A stretch of 63,566 nt of DNA, taken from Terriglobia bacterium (GTDB lineage: Bacteria; Acidobacteriota; Terriglobia; Acidiferrales; UBA7541). Made by a program: the position numbers and the translations under genes. The DNA lies in NCBI GenBank assembly GCA_020072805.1, contig JAIQGC010000013.1, forward strand, positions 1-63,566, written 5' to 3'. Positions within the stretch are counted from its first letter, which is position 1. The number at the start of each line of letters is the position of its first letter. Below, piece after piece: positions 3,119-17,535 of this stretch. The notes below the pieces were generated by a model. That model was not told the DNA's origin, did not search any database, and was given only the letters and a program-made list of their open reading frames with translations.

Positions 3119-3709
3119 ATGCTGTCACGATTTTGGCGAACGGTTTTGCTGGGAGTTTTGGCGTGGCCGCTGATCGCCGTGCCGGGGAACGGGCAGGGAA
3201 ACAGCCAGGGCAAGGGAAAGGGCCACCAGAAGAATCAGGAAGAAGACGAGGATCGCGATAGGGATAGCGACAAGGGAAAGCGGGGCGAGCACGGCCGCGA
3301 GAAGCAAGAAAAACGCGGGGGGCATGGGAAGGGCCGCCAGGAACGGGAGAGCCGCGAGCGCGAGTCGGAGCGGACAAGCCGTTCGAGCACGAGGACGCGG
3401 GTGAACGTGATTTTCAGCACGCGGGACCGGGATGTGGTGACGCGCTACTACTCGCGAAACAATTCGAATCTGCCACCGGGACTGGCCAAGCGCGGGGGAA
3501 ATCTGCCGCCGGGGCTGGAGCGGCAACTGCAGAGGAACGGGACGCTGCCGCCGGGGCTGGAGAAGAGGATGGAGCCATGCCCGCGGGAACTGGAGAGGGA
3601 TCTGCAGCCGTTGCCGGAGGGCCACCGCAGGGTGATCATCGGGGCCAAGCTGCTGATCCTGAACGAGCGGACCAACGTAATTGTTGATGTGTTGCACTTG
3701 CGGCGGTAA
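3119..3709 (+). CDS. Secreted CigR-like protein with LPPGL repeats
   Basis: A 196-aa protein starting at ATG 3119, chosen because GGAGG lies 5 nt upstream and a signal peptide (residues 1 to about 25, WPLIAVPGNGQG at its end) follows. Residues 30-115 are extremely charged and low in complexity, rich in K, R, E, D, G and H. Residues 118-160 contain three LPPGL units (NLPPGLAKR, NLPPGLERQ, TLPPGLEKR), and the end has RVIIGAKLLILNERTNVIVDVL. The LPPGL repeats plus the terminal 'I-D-L' segment resemble the CigR/RcnB-like family. A periplasmic role is likely; the biochemical role is unknown. A terminator follows. Confidence 0.75.
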   Translation: MLSRFWRTVLLGVLAWPLIAVPGNGQGNSQGKGKGHQKNQEEDEDRDRDSDKGKRGEHGREKQEKRGGHGKGRQERESRERESERTSRSSTRTRVNVIFSTRDRDVVTRYYSRNNSNLPPGLAKRGGNLPPGLERQLQRNGTLPPGLEKRMEPCPRELERDLQPLPEGHRRVIIGAKLLILNERTNVIVDVLHLRR

Positions 3710-3734
3710 GGCGATTTACTAGTTGCGGGATGGG

Positions 3735-3767
3735 GGGACAGGCGGAGATGCTTGTCCCTTTTTTTTT
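3735..3767 (+). terminator. Intrinsic terminator after the CigR-like gene
   Basis: An 8-bp stem (GGGACAGG 3735-3742 with CTTGTCCC 3751-3758, one G-T pair) and an 8-nt loop are followed by nine T residues at 3759-3767, 26 bp after the stop codon. Confidence 0.85.
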
Positions 3768-3799
3768 GGCAACGGCATGCATTGGCGGAGCGGAAAGGC

Positions 3800-3892
3800 C
3801 CGCCCTCTGAAGAGGGCGGCTACAGGAGTTTGCGGATACTGAACAGGCACTCGTGATCGGGCAGGGAGGGGCCGGGCAAGCCCGGCCCCTCC
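3800..3892. repeat. Two adjacent palindromic hairpin elements
   Basis: The first is CCGCCCTC/GAGGGCGG (3800-3807 with 3812-3819, 4-nt loop). The second is a perfect 13-bp stem (3865-3877 with 3880-3892) around a 2-nt AA spacer. Neither is followed by a T run. They lie between the convergent ends of the CigR-like gene and purM and look like dispersed intergenic palindromes (REP-like) rather than simple terminators. The copy number elsewhere in the genome cannot be judged from here. Confidence 0.55.
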
Positions 3893-3916
3893 GTCTGAGG
3901 CTGGCGAGAAATGCGC

Positions 3917-4963
3917 TCAGAGAGTGAGGGAGCCGCTGTAGACGACGCGGGTGCGGGAGACGTCGCTGCGTTCGATGCGGCCGATGCGGAAGAATTTTTC
4001 GCGGCGGCGCTTGAGGTCGGCTTCTACTTTTTTCACATGGGCGGGGGGAACGGAGAGAATCATGCCCACGCCGAGATTGAAAGACTGCAGCAGATCGTCG
4101 CGGTCCATTTTCCCAAGCTTGGCGAGGTAGCGGAAGATGGGGGGAACGGGCCAGGAAGAGAGTTCGATATGGGCGCGGACGCCGGCGGGAAGGACGCGGG
4201 GGAGATTGCCGGGGATGCCGCCGCCGGTGATATGAGCGAGAGCGGAGATCCAGCCGCGGGAGAGAGAAGAGCGCAAGGCGGGAGCGTAGCAGAGGTGGGG
4301 CTTGAGAAGTTCGGCGCCGATTTTATTGCTGACTTCGGGAACGTAGGTTTCGGGCTTGAGGCCGGCGGTTTCGAAACAGAGTTTGCGGGCGAGGGAATAG
4401 CCGTTGGTGTGCAGGCCGGCGGAGGGAAGAGCGAGGAGAATGTCGCCGGCCTGGACGGCCTTGCCGGTGATGAGTTTTTTGCGTTCGACCACGCCGACGA
4501 TGAAACCGGCGAGGTCGTATTCGCCGGGAGCGTAGAAGCCGGGCATCTCGGCGGTTTCGCCGCCGATGAGGGCGCAGCCGGCTTTGCGGCAGGCGCGGCT
4601 CATGCCGTCCACGAGCTGTTCGATGAGGTGGGAATCAAGCTTGCCCATGGCCAGGTAGTCGAGGAAGAAGAGCGGCTCGGCGCCCTGAACGAGGATGTCG
4701 TTGACGCAGTGGTTTACGAGATCGCCGCCAACGGTGGAATGGACCTTCATGGCCATGGCGACTTTCAGCTTGGTACCGACGCCGTCGGCGCTGGAGACCA
4801 GCACGGGCTCCTTCCATTTTTTCCTGTCGAGGGCGAAGAGGCCGCCGAAGCCGCCGATGCCGCTGAGGACGGCGGGGGTAAAGGTGCGGCTGGCGAGATG
4901 GCGGATGGTCTGCTTGGCCTCGTCAGCGGCCTGAATGTTCACTCCTGCGTCGGCATATTTCAT
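3917..4963 (-). CDS. purM: Phosphoribosylformylglycinamidine cyclo-ligase (AIR synthetase)
   Basis: Fifth step of purine synthesis: ATP-dependent ring closure of FGAM to AIR. The 348-aa length and the segments YADAGVNI (start), GGFGGLFAL, SADGVGTKLKVA (ATP/phosphate loop), CVNDILVQGAEPLFFLDY and ALIGGETAEMPGFY are diagnostic for PurM. It shares the PurM/PurL/SelD fold with the neighbouring purL. It lies downstream of lepB with a gap of about 70 bp and is probably in the same transcript as purQ-purL-purF-lepB. Confidence 0.97.
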   Translation of the reverse strand: MKYADAGVNIQAADEAKQTIRHLASRTFTPAVLSGIGGFGGLFALDRKKWKEPVLVSSADGVGTKLKVAMAMKVHSTVGGDLVNHCVNDILVQGAEPLFFLDYLAMGKLDSHLIEQLVDGMSRACRKAGCALIGGETAEMPGFYAPGEYDLAGFIVGVVERKKLITGKAVQAGDILLALPSAGLHTNGYSLARKLCFETAGLKPETYVPEVSNKIGAELLKPHLCYAPALRSSLSRGWISALAHITGGGIPGNLPRVLPAGVRAHIELSSWPVPPIFRYLAKLGKMDRDDLLQSFNLGVGMILSVPPAHVKKVEADLKRRREKFFRIGRIERSDVSRTRVVYSGSLTL

Positions 4964-10733: not shown

Positions 10734-11654
10734 CTACTTCCTGGACGCGGAGGAATCCGCCAGCGGGGGCGCGGGATTGAGCTGCGCCGGCAGGATGCCG
10801 TCGAGGCCAAGGACGTTCAAGAGGCTGGAGTTCGAGGGGACAATGTATTTGGTATTTTGCGCCAGGGTGTTGTTGAGAACTTCGAGGCGGCGCATCATTT
10901 CAGCGCGCTCCTTGAAGTAGGTTTCGGCGGCGGTGGAGACCATCTTGACGGCTTCGGCTTCGGCATTGGCGCGGGTGATGCGCGCCTGGGCGTCACCTTC
11001 GGCCTTGAGGATTTCGGACTGCTTGAAGCCTTCGGCGGCGAGGATCTGGGCCTGCTTGACGCCCTCGGCTTCGAGGATGGCGGCGCGTTTGTCGCGCTCC
11101 GCCTTCATCTGCCGGGACATGGCATCGGTGATGTCGCGCGGCGGCTGGATCTTCTGCACCTCGACGCGGGTGGCCTTCACGCCCCAGGCATTGGTGGCTT
11201 CGTCCAGCACCTCGCGCAGATTGCTGTTGATCATGTCGCGGGCCACGAGAGTTTCGTCGAGAGTGCGGTCCCCGATGAGGTTGCGCAAGTTGGTCTGGGC
11301 CAGGGTGGTGCAGGCGTAGCCGAAATTCTGGACTTCGAACTGGGACTTCACCGGGTCGATGACCTTGTAATAGACCACCGCGTCCACTTCGACGGTAACG
11401 TTGTCCTTGGTGATGACCTGCTGCGGGGGAACGTTGATGACCTGCTCGCGCATGTCCACGCTGATCAGGTCGTCCACAAAGGGCAGGATGAAGGTCAGGC
11501 CGGAGGAGGCCATGGCGTGGTACTTGCCGAGGCGCATGACCAGCCCTTTTTCGTACTGCTTGACGATGCGGCCTGCCTTGGCCAGGGTGACCAGGGCGAA
11601 GAAGGCGAACACAAAAAGCAGCACCGGAATAAAAACAGAAGTCGCGTCCTGCAT
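10734..11654 (-). CDS. SPFH/Band 7 family membrane protein (QmcA/stomatin-like)
   Basis: A 306-aa protein: an N-terminal membrane anchor (about 5-25), the Band 7/SPFH domain (about 25-190; GLVMRLGKYHAMASSGLTFI, YYKVIDPVKS, LGLRD-equivalent RVEVQKIQPPRDI), a long Ala/Glu-rich helix (about 190-255; KAEGDAQARITRANAEAEA), and a short hydrophilic tail. Family members assemble into ring-shaped membrane scaffolds and often pair with NfeD proteins and FtsH. Start ATG 11654 has GTGAGG upstream and lies 2 nt after the nfeD stop, so it is tightly coupled to nfeD. Confidence 0.9.
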   Translation of the reverse strand: MQDATSVFIPVLLFVFAFFALVTLAKAGRIVKQYEKGLVMRLGKYHAMASSGLTFILPFVDDLISVDMREQVINVPPQQVITKDNVTVEVDAVVYYKVIDPVKSQFEVQNFGYACTTLAQTNLRNLIGDRTLDETLVARDMINSNLREVLDEATNAWGVKATRVEVQKIQPPRDITDAMSRQMKAERDKRAAILEAEGVKQAQILAAEGFKQSEILKAEGDAQARITRANAEAEAVKMVSTAAETYFKERAEMMRRLEVLNNTLAQNTKYIVPSNSSLLNVLGLDGILPAQLNPAPPLADSSASRK

Positions 11655-11656
11655 GG

Positions 11657-12097
11657 TTACCTCACTTTGAGAGTTACGCCTTCTACGGAATCCACGATTA
11701 CCCTTGCGCCCGGTTCGCGGGGAGCATCTTCGGTTTGGAGCAGCTCCGCGCGCCATACCTCGTCGCCCAGCTTTACCTGGCCGGGATCGAGGGGAGCGAT
11801 GCGCTTGATCACCAGAGCGGTCTTGCCCACCACGGCGTCCACATTCATCGCGTGTGTTTTAGAGGTGAGCTTGGAGCGCAGCCAGCGGCGCAGAAAGGCC
11901 AAATAGGCGAACCCCAGCACGCCCGCGGCGATCAATCCCGTATTTCCAGAGTGAAAAAGAAGTCCGATGGCTCCGCCGGCCGCCAGAGAGCAGCCGATAA
12001 GCGCCAGGTCGAAGCCCGTCGCCGCGCCCATGGCCAACTCGGCGATCACACACACCAAGCCGCCGATCAACAGCAGCCAGTTTACCCAGGTCCCCAC
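11657..12097 (-). CDS. NfeD-like membrane protein (short form)
   Basis: A 146-aa protein with three to four membrane segments (about 3-75) followed by a soluble C-terminal OB-fold-like domain (about 85-146; AVVGKTALVIKRIAPLDPGQVKLGDEVWRA split by the usual Gly-containing turns). GTG 12097 is chosen as start because AGGAGG lies 7 nt upstream; the earlier ATG at 12133 has no such signal. Short NfeD proteins are partners of the SPFH protein encoded immediately downstream (2-nt gap) and modulate its membrane assembly. Here it lacks the long-form N-terminal ClpP-class serine protease domain. Confidence 0.85.
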   Translation of the reverse strand: MGTWVNWLLLIGGLVCVIAELAMGAATGFDLALIGCSLAAGGAIGLLFHSGNTGLIAAGVLGFAYLAFLRRWLRSKLTSKTHAMNVDAVVGKTALVIKRIAPLDPGQVKLGDEVWRAELLQTEDAPREPGARVIVDSVEGVTLKVR

Positions 12098-12195
12098 GGC
12101 TTTGCCTCCTGCACGTACCGGGGACGATAACACCCTAGCCGGAGCGGTTCAATGAGAAAGGCGGAAGAGGCTGTTCGGAGCGGCAGCGCCGCGAA

Positions 12196-13838: not shown

Positions 13839-14783
13839 CTAATCAGCGGCAGGGACAGGCTGCGGATGGAGGGCGGGGGCATGGCCGGCGGAGTGGGAGG
13901 GAACGGCGGGGAGCGGTTCGGTGGTTGTGGTCCAAGCCGCGGGGTCGGCGAGGAGTCGGCTAACGAGCTGGGTGTGCATGGCGTGGCCCCCGCGATAGGC
14001 TTCCACGCGAGCGAGCAGGGGGAGGCCGACCAGGGCGAGATCGCCGATGAGGTCGAGGGCTTTGTGGCGGCCAAATTCATCGGGAAAGCGCAGGGGGCCG
14101 TTCATCACGCCGTCGGCGGTAAGAACGATGGCGTTCTCGAGGGAACCGCCGCGGATGAGGCCCATTTTCTTCAGCGGCTCGATATCGCGTTCGAAACAGA
14201 AGGTGCGCGCGCGGGAAAGACGCTCGCGGAAGGAGGCGGGAGTAACGGTTAGTTCCACGGCTTGCGGGCCCACCAGAGGATGGGGAAAATCCACGAAGCA
14301 GCGCAGATGGAATTCATCGGCGGGATAAATTCCAATGCGGCGCACCAGGCCGGGTTCGTGCGGGTCGGGCTCCTGCAGTTCGATGGGTTTCAGGACCTTG
14401 AGGTAGCGGCGCTTCCTGCGGAGCTGGCGGATTCCGGCGCGGTCGAGCATTTCCATGAACGGCTCGGCGGAACCATCGAGGATGGGAATTTCGATGGCGT
14501 CAATGTCCACATAGACGTTATCAATGCCGCTGGAATAAAGCGCGGCGAGAACGTGTTCGGTGGTGGAGAGCAGCACGCCCTGTTTCATCAGGCTGGTGGC
14601 GTAGCTGACGCGCGCGACGTTCTGGCCGCGGGCCTCGATGGGGAAATTGTCCAGATCGGTGCGGCGAAAAAGAATTCCGGTGTCGGCGGGCGCGGGCGTG
14701 AGACGAAGATTTCCGGCAACGCCAGTATGCAGGCCGATGCCGGAGGTTTCCACGGAGCGCGAAATGGTGGTCTGAAAAATCAT
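13839..14783 (-). CDS. lpxC: UDP-3-O-acyl-N-acetylglucosamine deacetylase
   Basis: Zinc-dependent committed step of lipid A synthesis, showing that the organism makes lipopolysaccharide. The 314-aa product has zinc ligands His77 (TTEHVLAAL), His240 and Asp244 (RHKALDLIGD) and the catalytic His267 (GGHAMHTQL). The first ~280 residues cover the usual enzyme; the last ~30 are a Pro/His/Thr/Ala-rich extension (AWTTTTEPLPAVPSHSAGH) not needed for the fold. Start ATG 14783 faces an AT-rich divergent intergenic region. Confidence 0.97.
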   Translation of the reverse strand: MIFQTTISRSVETSGIGLHTGVAGNLRLTPAPADTGILFRRTDLDNFPIEARGQNVARVSYATSLMKQGVLLSTTEHVLAALYSSGIDNVYVDIDAIEIPILDGSAEPFMEMLDRAGIRQLRRKRRYLKVLKPIELQEPDPHEPGLVRRIGIYPADEFHLRCFVDFPHPLVGPQAVELTVTPASFRERLSRARTFCFERDIEPLKKMGLIRGGSLENAIVLTADGVMNGPLRFPDEFGRHKALDLIGDLALVGLPLLARVEAYRGGHAMHTQLVSRLLADPAAWTTTTEPLPAVPSHSAGHAPALHPQPVPAAD

Positions 14784-15107: not shown

Positions 15108-16508
15108 ATGAACCGAATTACACAAGCAGGACTGGTCATTCTATCCATACTTGTTTTTGGCTACGTGGGACTGGGCCACGTGCTGGGAAAGACGGGCGAC
15201 GAGAAGGCCTATCACTCGCTGATCGTCTACGGCGAAGTCCTGCAGAAGATTCAGCAGGATTACGTGGACGAGCCCAATATGCATCAGGTGACGGCGGGCT
15301 CGCTGCACGGCCTGCTGGAGTCGCTGGATGCGCAGTCGAGTTATCTCACGCCGCGGGAATACGCCGAGTACAAACAAAAGATGGAGAACCCGGCGGGCGG
15401 GGAAATCGGAGTGACGCTGACCAAGCGTTACGGATACATCGTGGTGCTTTCGGTTCTGCCGGAGAGCGCGGCGCACAAGGCCGGGCTGCATTCCGGGGAC
15501 ATTCTGGAAGCGATCGGCGGGTTCACCACGCGGAATATGTCGGTGGGGCAGGCCATGAACCTGCTGGCCGGGGCGGCCGGAACGGGGATCAAGCTGGCGG
15601 TGATTTCCGGCGGACGAACGGCGCCGCAGGAAATGGAAATCGTGCGGGAGAAGCTGGTCCCGCAGAAAATGCAGAGCGCGAAGTTCGAGCCGGACACGCT
15701 GGTGCTGCGGCTGCCGTCGCTGAACGCGGGGCGCGCGGCGGAAGTGCGCGAGCGGCTGGCGCAGGCGGAGAAGCAGGGGATCCGCAAGGTGATCGTGGAC
15801 GTGCGCGATTGCGGGCGCGGCGAAGTTCCCGAAGCGGTGGCGCTGGCGCGGCTTTTCCTTTCTTCGGGCACGGTGGCGGCGCTGGAGGGGCAGACGGTTT
15901 CGAAACAGGTCCTGGCGGCGGAACCGGCGCAGGTGGCGTGGAAGCATGCGGTCTCCGTGCTGATTTCGACGACGACCTCGGGAGCGGCGGAAGTATTCGC
16001 CTCGGCGATGGTCAGCAATCATCGCGGGGATGTGGTGGGCGAGCGCAGTTACGGGCTGGCCTCGGAGCAGAAACTGATTCCGCTGGAGGACGGCGCGGCG
16101 GTCATCCTGACGGTGGCCAACTACATCGGGCCGGAGGGCAAGCCAATTCTGGAGCAGGGCGTGACGCCGACCGAAGTGGTGCGCGCGGCGGCAACCGCGG
16201 CGGCCAGCGAGGATGTCGGCGAGGATGAGGAGTCCGGCGAACCCGCGGCGGCGGCCAAGGAAGCGCCCGCGGCGCCGCAGCCCGCGCCGCTTGGACCGCG
16301 AAATTCGCGGACTACAGCAAGCAGTACCCCGGCCTCGCCGCGCAGCCAGGCCATCGTAGAAGCGCTTGCCCGCGTTGCGAACTTTCCCGAAGACAACTCA
16401 GTCAAAGTGGCTGCGGCGCGGCCTGGCTTGGGGTGCGCTCGCCGTCGCTCTCCTGGCCGCGGGCTGCAAGAAAGAGGCGGAGCGGCCTCCCGCTGCGCAG
16501 GTGCATAA
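15108..16508 (+). CDS. S41 (C-terminal processing) protease homologue lacking the catalytic Ser/Lys
   Basis: A 466-aa exported protein: an N-terminal signal/anchor (about 5-27), an S41 N-terminal segment (YDFL-like IQQDYVDEPN), a PDZ domain (about 100-185; EIGVTLTKRYGYIVVLSV, KAGLHSGDILEAIGG) and the S41 domain (about 195-360; DVRDCGRGEVPEAVALARLF). In active CtpA-type enzymes the block reads SASASE and, 25 residues on, FGKG. Here it is TTTSGAAE with Gly292 at the Ser position and SYGLAS with Leu317 at the Lys position, so the dyad appears lost. The Ala/Pro-rich C terminus overlaps the next gene by about 140 nt. A non-proteolytic scaffold role is inferred. Confidence 0.88.
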   Translation: MNRITQAGLVILSILVFGYVGLGHVLGKTGDEKAYHSLIVYGEVLQKIQQDYVDEPNMHQVTAGSLHGLLESLDAQSSYLTPREYAEYKQKMENPAGGEIGVTLTKRYGYIVVLSVLPESAAHKAGLHSGDILEAIGGFTTRNMSVGQAMNLLAGAAGTGIKLAVISGGRTAPQEMEIVREKLVPQKMQSAKFEPDTLVLRLPSLNAGRAAEVRERLAQAEKQGIRKVIVDVRDCGRGEVPEAVALARLFLSSGTVAALEGQTVSKQVLAAEPAQVAWKHAVSVLISTTTSGAAEVFASAMVSNHRGDVVGERSYGLASEQKLIPLEDGAAVILTVANYIGPEGKPILEQGVTPTEVVRAAATAAASEDVGEDEESGEPAAAAKEAPAAPQPAPLGPRNSRTTASSTPASPRSQAIVEALARVANFPEDNSVKVAAARPGLGCARRRSPGRGLQERGGAASRCAGA

Positions 16509-17535
16509 GATCACGCGTGAGCTTACGACAGCGGCAGCCGGAGCGGCCGGAGCTGATGCGCGGGTGCGCAGCGAACTGCGCTATGGCGACACGCGGGTGG
16601 ATTCGGCGGATCACCTCTACGTCACGGTGCGCGCGAGCGGGAACGAAGCGGGGCGGCGCGCAGCTCTGGCGAATCTGCTGCAAACGCTGGGCGCGGTGGC
16701 CACGCGCAATGGACTGACGCAGGATGCCGCCGTGGAAAGCGGCGGGCTGCTGCGCTTCAGTTACCGCCGCGGCGGAGTGGTCACCCATACAATCCACCTG
16801 GTTTCGCCGATTGCCGTGCGAGCCGCGGCGCCGGCTGCGGGCTCATCCGCCGGCGCGCGCGGGCCGGATAAGTCCCCTGCGCGGCTGGCTATCATTCTGG
16901 ACGATTTGGGAGGCGACCGCGCAGCGGCCGACGCGGTCTTCGCGCTGCGCTACCCTCTGACGCTTTCGGTGCTGCCCGGGCATCCCCATTCGGCGGAGAT
17001 CGCCGAAGAAGCCTATGCGCACGGTTATCAAGTGATGTTGCACCTGCCCATGCAATCCGTGGCCGGGGAAAAGGCCGAAGCGGCGGAACTGCACCCGGGG
17101 CTGGCGCCCGGTGAAGTGGCCTCGCTGGTCACGCAGATGCTGGATTCGATTCCGCACGTGGCCGGGGTGAACAATCATCAGGGGTCGCAGGCCACCGCCA
17201 ACACGGAGTTAATGTCCGCGCTGATGCCGGTGCTGCGCGAACGGGGGCTCTTCTACATTGACAGCCGCACGACGGCGGCGACCGTGGCCTTTGCCTCGGC
17301 GCAGCACGCGGGAGTGCCGGCGGGATTCCGAAACGTTCCCTTTCTAGATGATGTGGCCGAGGTGGACGCAGTGCGGCGGCAATTGACGCTGGCCATCGAC
17401 GGCGCGAAGCAGAAGGGCGAGGCCATCGCCATCGGACACCCGCATGCGGCAACGCTGCGGGCACTGGGCGAGATCTTGCCGGAACTGGAAGCGCAGGGAG
17501 TGCGGCTGGTCTACGCCTCCGAACTGGTTCACTGA
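16366..17535 (+). CDS. Divergent polysaccharide deacetylase lipoprotein (YibQ-like)
   Basis: The 389-aa product has a lipoprotein signal peptide (WGALAVALLAAGC, Cys about residue 34), a linker and an N-terminal domain (about 60-150), then a divergent polysaccharide deacetylase domain (about 160-389). Segments LAIILDDLGGDRAAAD, LSVLPGHPHS, VMLHLPMQS, GVNNHQGSQATA and FYIDSRTT match the YibQ/DUF610 family. In-frame upstream TAG at 16357 limits the start to TTG 16366 or TTG 16375. It overlaps the end of the S41 gene in another frame. YibQ-type genes commonly accompany envC/ctpA-like genes, so a cell-wall remodelling role in the periplasm is likely. Confidence 0.85.
   Translation: MPALRTFPKTTQSKWLRRGLAWGALAVALLAAGCKKEAERPPAAQVHKITRELTTAAAGAAGADARVRSELRYGDTRVDSADHLYVTVRASGNEAGRRAALANLLQTLGAVATRNGLTQDAAVESGGLLRFSYRRGGVVTHTIHLVSPIAVRAAAPAAGSSAGARGPDKSPARLAIILDDLGGDRAAADAVFALRYPLTLSVLPGHPHSAEIAEEAYAHGYQVMLHLPMQSVAGEKAEAAELHPGLAPGEVASLVTQMLDSIPHVAGVNNHQGSQATANTELMSALMPVLRERGLFYIDSRTTAATVAFASAQHAGVPAGFRNVPFLDDVAEVDAVRRQLTLAIDGAKQKGEAIAIGHPHAATLRALGEILPELEAQGVRLVYASELVH

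Follow-up and report, generated by a model that had tools for sequence, protein, structure and literature searches.

A putative CtpA-type pseudoprotease and its dyad-less relatives in the Acidobacteriota

The S41 gene and its surroundings

The window, i.e., the whole analysed stretch of 63,566 nucleotides from a Terriglobia soil bacterium (contig JAIQGC010000013.1), carries an open reading frame (ORF) for an S41/PDZ protein, followed on the same strand by the gene of a PF04748 deacetylase, as in an envC-ctpA-sddA-type cassette. The following features were distinguished:

15108..16508, + strand: ORF of the S41/PDZ putative pseudoprotease, 466 aa as called, with native support only to ~16262 (residue 385)
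15114..15185, + strand: N-terminal helix, residues 3-26 (predicted model helix and sequence)
15333..15335, + strand: Gln76, at the position of His-84 (proposed acid) of P. aeruginosa CtpA (PaCtpA) (alignment)
15381..15599, + strand: PDZ domain, residues 92-164 (Pfam PF00595, 1e-8)
15567..15569, + strand: Ala154, aligned with the substrate sensor Arg-162 of H. pylori CtpA (HpCtpA) and Arg-168 of CtpB (alignment)
15696..16178, + strand: Peptidase_S41 domain, residues 197-357 (Pfam PF03572, 6.5e-30)
15798..15821, + strand: D231-V-R-D-C-G-R-G238, a degenerate D-L-R-x-N-P-G-G loop (alignment)
15975..15992, + strand: T290-S-G292-A-A-E295, with Gly292 in place of the nucleophilic Ser (phmmer alignment, codon reading)
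16056..16058, + strand: Leu317 (codon CTG) in place of the catalytic Lys, aligned with the Lys of FGKG (phmmer)
16068..16070, + strand: Gln321, kept as the third residue (PaCtpA Q331) (alignment)
16263..16346, + strand: transketolase-like stretch of 84 bp (100% identity to a gene of the congener G029, 87% to G028)
16366..17535, + strand: divergent polysaccharide deacetylase of the YibQ/SddA type (PF04748, 1.9e-68)

Judging by its hydrophobicity, the helix at residues 3-26 is probably a membrane anchor or an uncleaved signal. The solved structures nearest by sequence are those of P. aeruginosa CtpA (7rpq, 2.9e-41) and of H. pylori CtpA (9ku0/9jr1). An AlphaFold2 model, built on a 39-row alignment, has a mean pLDDT of 76.4 (85-98 in most PDZ and S41 core blocks) and is aligned by VIA-align with H. 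pylori CtpA (9jr1_A) at Z 34.1 (333 residues, 3.5 A) and with P. aeruginosa CtpA (8sxe_B) at Z 33.9 (341 residues, 3.8 A). On this predicted model, the window protein is an S41/PDZ protein with the cap/core fold of CtpA. An earlier reading of the same DNA made from its letters (the sequence-only reading) had claimed that the fold and the PDZ domain are kept, and both claims are borne out, the former by the Z scores of ~34 to both CtpAs and the latter by the Pfam match. The window protein scores 187.5 bits against NCBIfam TIGR00225, below the curated cut-off of 218.6, a threshold that fails to separate dead from active proteins, as several dyad-less relatives pass it (e.g., that of G089, with 241.5 bits). 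A PADLOC search with the window protein gave no match.

The 3' end of the ORF is disturbed. Relatives from the genus end at ~410-420 aa with a conserved C-terminal helix, followed by KKAA and a stop, and it is at this place that the window has the 84 bp of transketolase DNA. The transketolase gene of the window genome (G000) is itself fragmented, and one of the pieces starts at base 12 of its contig, a little past the counterpart of 16263-16346 (as read from profile coordinates). The stretch is thus probably a mis-assembly, with a real insertion as the alternative. Because of it, position 16508 is probably not where the native ORF ends, and the overlap of 143 bp between this ORF and that of the deacetylase, which the sequence-only reading had mentioned alongside a possible pairing, is probably an assembly artefact; neither this overlap nor the model helix at residues 411-424 is to be interpreted. 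The catalytic positions lie ~200 bp upstream of the transketolase stretch, and the catalytic region is untouched.

The deacetylase has a lipoprotein-like N-terminus, and the Asp-Asp, His and His columns of its metal site are present (alignment with 2nly). Upstream of the S41 gene lies a minus-strand ORF (13839-14783), which we take to be LpxC, and no EnvC-like M23 gene is adjacent. Also on the minus strand, two adjacent ORFs (10734-12133) presumably form a slipin/stomatin and NfeD pair, which they resemble.

In P. aeruginosa, envC, ctpA and PA5135 are described as one operon, PA5135 being the orthologue of E. coli sddA (available portion of PMC12569750). The substrates of E. coli YibQ/SddA, a deacetylase with a link to EnvC, are the denuded strands that septal amidases leave behind (PMC12440217, in part). 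Deep branches of the relatives of the window gene carry a gene for a coiled-coil, EnvC-like M23 protein upstream of the S41 gene, and Pfam M23 was found in 8/8 of those scanned; the match to an EnvC query started within the first 50 query residues in 8/32 genomes and was confined to the later part of the query in the others, including G000. We therefore conclude from gene order that the window gene descends from the central member of an envC-ctpA-sddA-type cassette for the splitting of septal peptidoglycan, apparently intact in deep-branching Acidobacteriota, of which only the deacetylase remains beside it here. The EnvC-like gene upstream in the deep branches had escaped the sequence-only reading.

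The link with the deacetylase, suggested in that reading, holds in part. A PF04748 gene was recognised in 33/80 genomes searched (19/52 and 14/28; uneven draws, as possession of a short S41 was the criterion for the 52 and lack of a strong match that for most of the 28), and in 31 of these 33 it stands directly downstream of a short S41 gene on the same strand (in one case across a contig break). The other two comprise one without a recognised S41 (L290) and one outside the comparison. The remaining 47/80 genomes were without a PF04748 match at E 1e-8; many genomes of this kind still have an S41 relative. Among 100 scored rows, both neighbours were found in 13, only the EnvC-like gene in 12, only the deacetylase gene in 15 and neither in 60, some of the last perhaps due to contig ends; the survey was seeded on S41 matches and cannot show a better retention of the S41 gene than of the genes beside it. 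Two kinds of loci deviate from these arrangements: L290 (G273:C83) has a PF04748 deacetylase gene with no recognisable S41 neighbour, and L292 and L293 have a strongly degraded S41 relative between EnvC-like and PF04748 genes, the S41 domain of L292 being barely seen by Pfam (0.00081, below cut-off).

Active-site residues in the window protein and its relatives

Codon 292 (15981-15983) is GGA (Gly), and in the phmmer alignment this residue falls on the catalytic Ser of P. aeruginosa CtpA (the rows of 7rpq and 7rqh differ at this column; 7rqh is the S302A mutant); Leu317 sits 25 residues on. The replacement of both catalytic residues, as proposed in the sequence-only reading, is thus confirmed by codons and alignment. 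The dyad of P. aeruginosa CtpA is Ser-302/Lys-327; the S302A and K327A variants are reported as dead in vivo, while the effect of Q331A is minor and that of H84A moderate (PMC11021448 and PMC8764530, both in part). Of the residues that define S41A C-terminal processing proteases (CTPs), Ser, Lys and His-84 are absent from the window protein, and Gln321 and Glu295 are present. Two substrate-binding elements are changed as well. The D-L-R-x-N-P-G-G loop, which the substrate peptide packs against in CtpA (PMC11021448, in part), is degenerate, and Ala154 occupies the place of Arg-162 of H. pylori CtpA (CtpB Arg-168), a substrate sensor at which mutation impairs activity (PMC12749690, in part). As far as the alignments go, the earlier reading is right on the dyad and understates the loss, which extends to the NPGG loop, the sensor Arg of the PDZ domain and the position of His-84.

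The survey of relatives covered the Acidobacteriota. Gly stands at the Ser position in 51/51 rows of the window's family, and Gly combined with a non-Lys residue at the base position was found in 79/79 readable sequences among 80 named loci, the best 80 of 330 confirmed stretches (one was unreadable, cut by a contig end); the named loci share many genomes with the family rows, so that the two counts overlap. The titles of these best 80 loci read Acidobacteria, Acidiferrales, Terriglobia and alike, bar one labelled Betaproteobacteria (L112; CAJCHZ010000021.1), whose protein groups with the window's genus and which is probably a mislabelled bin.

Across the phylum we compared 105 short S41 rows (ORFs of ~340-650 aa, mostly 390-450), 98 without the Ser/Lys pair and seven with it (L071 and L205-L208, of one family, L089 and L297). 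Left out of these counts were 38 of the 51 family rows (13 were used), L091 and L222 (loci that held the long paralogue), L212 (a masked stretch), L289 (a near copy of L288) and L290 (no S41 recognised). L297 falls outside the lineage in the tree, which gives 98/104 dyad-less rows for the lineage, defined as one side of a branch with a support of only 72. Among the 98 dyad-less rows, the residue at the Ser position is Gly in 81 and N, R, Q, H or W in the deepest branches; partial pairs are few (Ser without Lys in four, Lys without Ser in two). In a control set of S41 loci fetched by a TIGR00225 search, which includes the locus of L297, Ser and Lys were present in 60/60, and His too in 58. The survey for the same substitutions, which the sequence-only reading had called for, is thus in line with its claim, and the phylum-wide spread of dyad loss that the alignments point to went unnoticed there.

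At E 1e-3, some match was obtained in 36/36 genus genomes and 89/89 family genomes, with only other S41s or tiny matches in three and five of them, respectively (by table inspection), and the gene, as judged from these searches, is common and not universal in genus and family. At E 1e-40, matches were obtained in 192/200 class genomes and 106/198 phylum genomes. Two groups of loci are of separate interest. A genome of the window's genus contains a second dyad-less S41 (L204; G004:C3, ~3544-4659; Gly/Asp), which groups with rows of family f7 (support 100) and may reflect horizontal gain or contamination. The rows L071 and L205-L208 (family f9) have Ser and Lys, with no His-84 and with NCGGE replacing NPGG, and might be proteases with retained or regained activity inside a group of dead ones.

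Coordinated loss, selection and the remaining conserved residues

The changes extend to the positions around the dyad. His at position 76 occurs in 0/105 short rows (0/98 dyad-less and 0/7 dyad-bearing) vs. 16/16 long or reference rows, and Arg or Lys at position 154 in 35/98 dyad-less rows vs. 16/16. In the loop, Asn at position 235 is found in 8/98 and the first Gly (position 237) in 24/98 dyad-less rows vs. 16/16 long or reference rows for both, whereas Asp231 and Arg233 are kept in 98/98. The DVRDCGRGEV stretch, which the sequence-only reading had listed as kept, is therefore conserved in its Asp and Arg and not as a catalytic loop. Its claim of a retained Glu applies to the whole set, since Glu295 is present in 95/98 dyad-less rows.

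On a tree built without the dyad columns, the dyad-less rows show 50 changes at the Lys position (where the commonest letter reaches only 15/98), 54 at the first loop Gly, 14 at the Ser position and six at position 290. According to this reconstruction, the Ser/Lys pair disappeared 11-12 times if loss is irreversible, or else once, early on, and came back two or more times; as deep support is weak and several rows have very long branches, we favour neither course. A single origin of the dyad-less rows was rejected, in that a tree joining all 49 of them in a reduced set of 67 rows had an AU p of 6.8e-6 (LG+G4, quick tree), a test limited by long branches and weak deep support.

The dN/dS ratios of 16 close pairs (15 of them dyad-less) range from 0.026 to 0.219, which indicates that the protein is maintained and not decaying. 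The window pair has the highest value (0.219), and the 84-bp transketolase stretch disrupts the C-terminal part of the window protein, as could be expected of a decaying pseudogene or a sequencing error; however, the other 15 pairs have values of 0.026-0.164, the same residues recur in independent assemblies and the disturbed part lies outside the catalytic region, so that we give this explanation hardly any credence.

Could the protein still be a protease, using Ser291, Thr290 or Cys235 as a nucleophile in an unusual mechanism? Thr is found at position 290 in 90/98 dyad-less rows and Cys235 in 51/51 family rows, but Ser or Thr occupies position 290 in 23/23 dyad-bearing rows too and is not new, and Cys at 235 is limited to 34/98 dyad-less rows. 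Ser291, which the sequence-only reading had named as the residue that could overturn its own proposal, offers no way out either (Ala in 59/98 and Ser in only 21/98 dyad-less rows), and no replacement Lys or other general base stands in for the lost one. All three candidates were rejected on their conservation pattern across the 98 rows, and unusual proteolysis is regarded as very improbable.

The residues that are kept might also serve a rebuilt enzyme, in which the emptied pocket would run another reaction via T290-x-G292-x-x-E295 together with Asp231 and Arg233. Gly is held at the Ser position in 81/98 dyad-less rows (14 tree changes) while the Lys position drifts (50), and Thr290 (90/98), Glu295 (95/98), Asp231 and Arg233 (both 98/98) are strongly conserved. 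On such a reading, loss of proteolysis would itself have been favoured, repeatedly in the phylum, and the T-x-G-x-x-E motif, kept or converged on, would now bind or convert a ligand, a course of events to which we assign a low probability. Glu295, Asp231 and Arg233 are equally conserved in active CTPs and could have a structural role, the turn at position 292 might just call for a small residue, and the deepest branches break the Gly pattern. Moreover, neither a ligand or cofactor nor a new cluster of conserved residues came to light, and the Pfam, NCBIfam and PADLOC searches gave S41-, PDZ- or HtrA-type matches or none. Re-use of the pocket as an enzyme is thus quite improbable.

Proposed role and comparison with known systems

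The reading that we prefer, with a probability of roughly 0.55, is that the window gene encodes a conserved pseudoprotease derived from the cassette, which would keep the anchor, PDZ domain and fold of its S41 ancestors, have lost catalysis and, as we infer, bind partners without cutting them. Its most likely function would be that of a non-proteolytic PDZ scaffold or regulator in septal peptidoglycan processing. Cell-wall enzymes, or the proteins that activate them, may have their C-terminal tails held uncut in the PDZ groove or the tunnel. Such binding would gather, shield or hold back the partners, among which the adjacent deacetylase or the amidase-activating system may be considered. Actual proteolysis would fall to the other S41 protease of these genomes, which is longer and intact.

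A binding role is favoured by two points: a PDZ domain and tunnel can in principle hold a tail, and half of the subunits of the CtpA oligomer are non-cutting. In the CtpA-LbcA complex, one subunit per dimer stays inactive (PMC11021448, in part), and non-cutting copies within assemblies thus appear to have a precedent. Since the sensor Arg is lost in the window protein, peptide binding may itself be weakened or altered. Some relatives within the lineage may still cut, as six of its rows keep Ser and Lys. A role tied to the cassette is counted against by the 60/100 rows with neither neighbour and by the apparent absence of the gene from 3/36 genus and 5/89 family genomes.

The inactive half of the CtpA oligomer (PMC11021448, in part) would also suit a dead S41 that steers or inhibits the longer intact protease as a subunit of a mixed complex, and the partner is at hand: a longer S41 above the TIGR00225 cut-off was found in 80/80 genomes searched (52/52 and 28/28), and the window genome has one other CTP-type S41 (L002/L192), with an intact dyad. 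Such a complex is nevertheless unlikely. The short and long S41 proteins of the window genome are ~25% identical over 340 residues and encoded on different contigs in G000, the two genes are not neighbours wherever coordinates were compared, and the strongest linkage of the short one is with envelope genes.

In the open-licence literature, outside which most subscription papers lie, no description of a dyad-less Acidobacteriota S41 lineage was found. The S41 family and the cassette are known, and it is the catalytically dead, phylum-spanning CtpA branch seen in our alignments that appears to be new. Pseudoenzymes mostly turn up one gene at a time; in this case, an entire lineage of a well-studied cell-wall protease seemingly persists without catalysis across a phylum. 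This lineage sits within the envC, ctpA and sddA gene set, whose wiring is still under study, and offers a natural case in which binding by CtpA is uncoupled from cutting. Should the dead form still matter for division, part of the work of CtpA in other bacteria may be non-proteolytic too. The results are also a warning for annotation, as dead proteins are filed as S41 peptidases, some of them exceeding the curated score cut-off.

Among known systems, P. aeruginosa CtpA (PA5134-type; 7rpq, 8sxe) shares with the window protein the N-terminal dimer region, the PDZ domain, the cap/core S41 fold and the place of its gene before that of a YibQ/SddA-type deacetylase. It is active, with Ser-302/Lys-327/His-84 where the window protein has Gly/Leu/Gln, and its gene has envC in the operon, whereas the window gene is without an envC-like neighbour. 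H. pylori CtpA (9jr1, 9ku0) has the same fold and gives the best VIA-align rows (Z 34); it too is active, with the Arg-162 sensor and the NPGG loop intact, both of which are changed in the window protein. The modules of the interphotoreceptor retinoid-binding protein (4lur), which we take to be a non-peptidase member of the S41 family, have an S41-like fold, but their VIA-align Z is only 16.5, and the protein is eukaryotic, with no PDZ match and no neighbourhood shared with the window gene. The neighbour of the window gene belongs to the same deacetylase family (PF04748) as E. coli YibQ/SddA, with the metal-site residues in place. In E. coli, envC and sddA are adjacent, with no ctpA between them in the account given by the available portion of PMC12569750, while in the deep-branching relatives the EnvC-like gene lies upstream of the S41 gene. 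Finally, ATU2773, the Agrobacterium homologue of SddA, is described as dead, being without the zinc ligands, and as part of an envC-linked cassette, with a proposed regulatory role (PMC12440217, in part); in that cassette it is the deacetylase that is dead, whereas in the cassette of the window it would be the protease.
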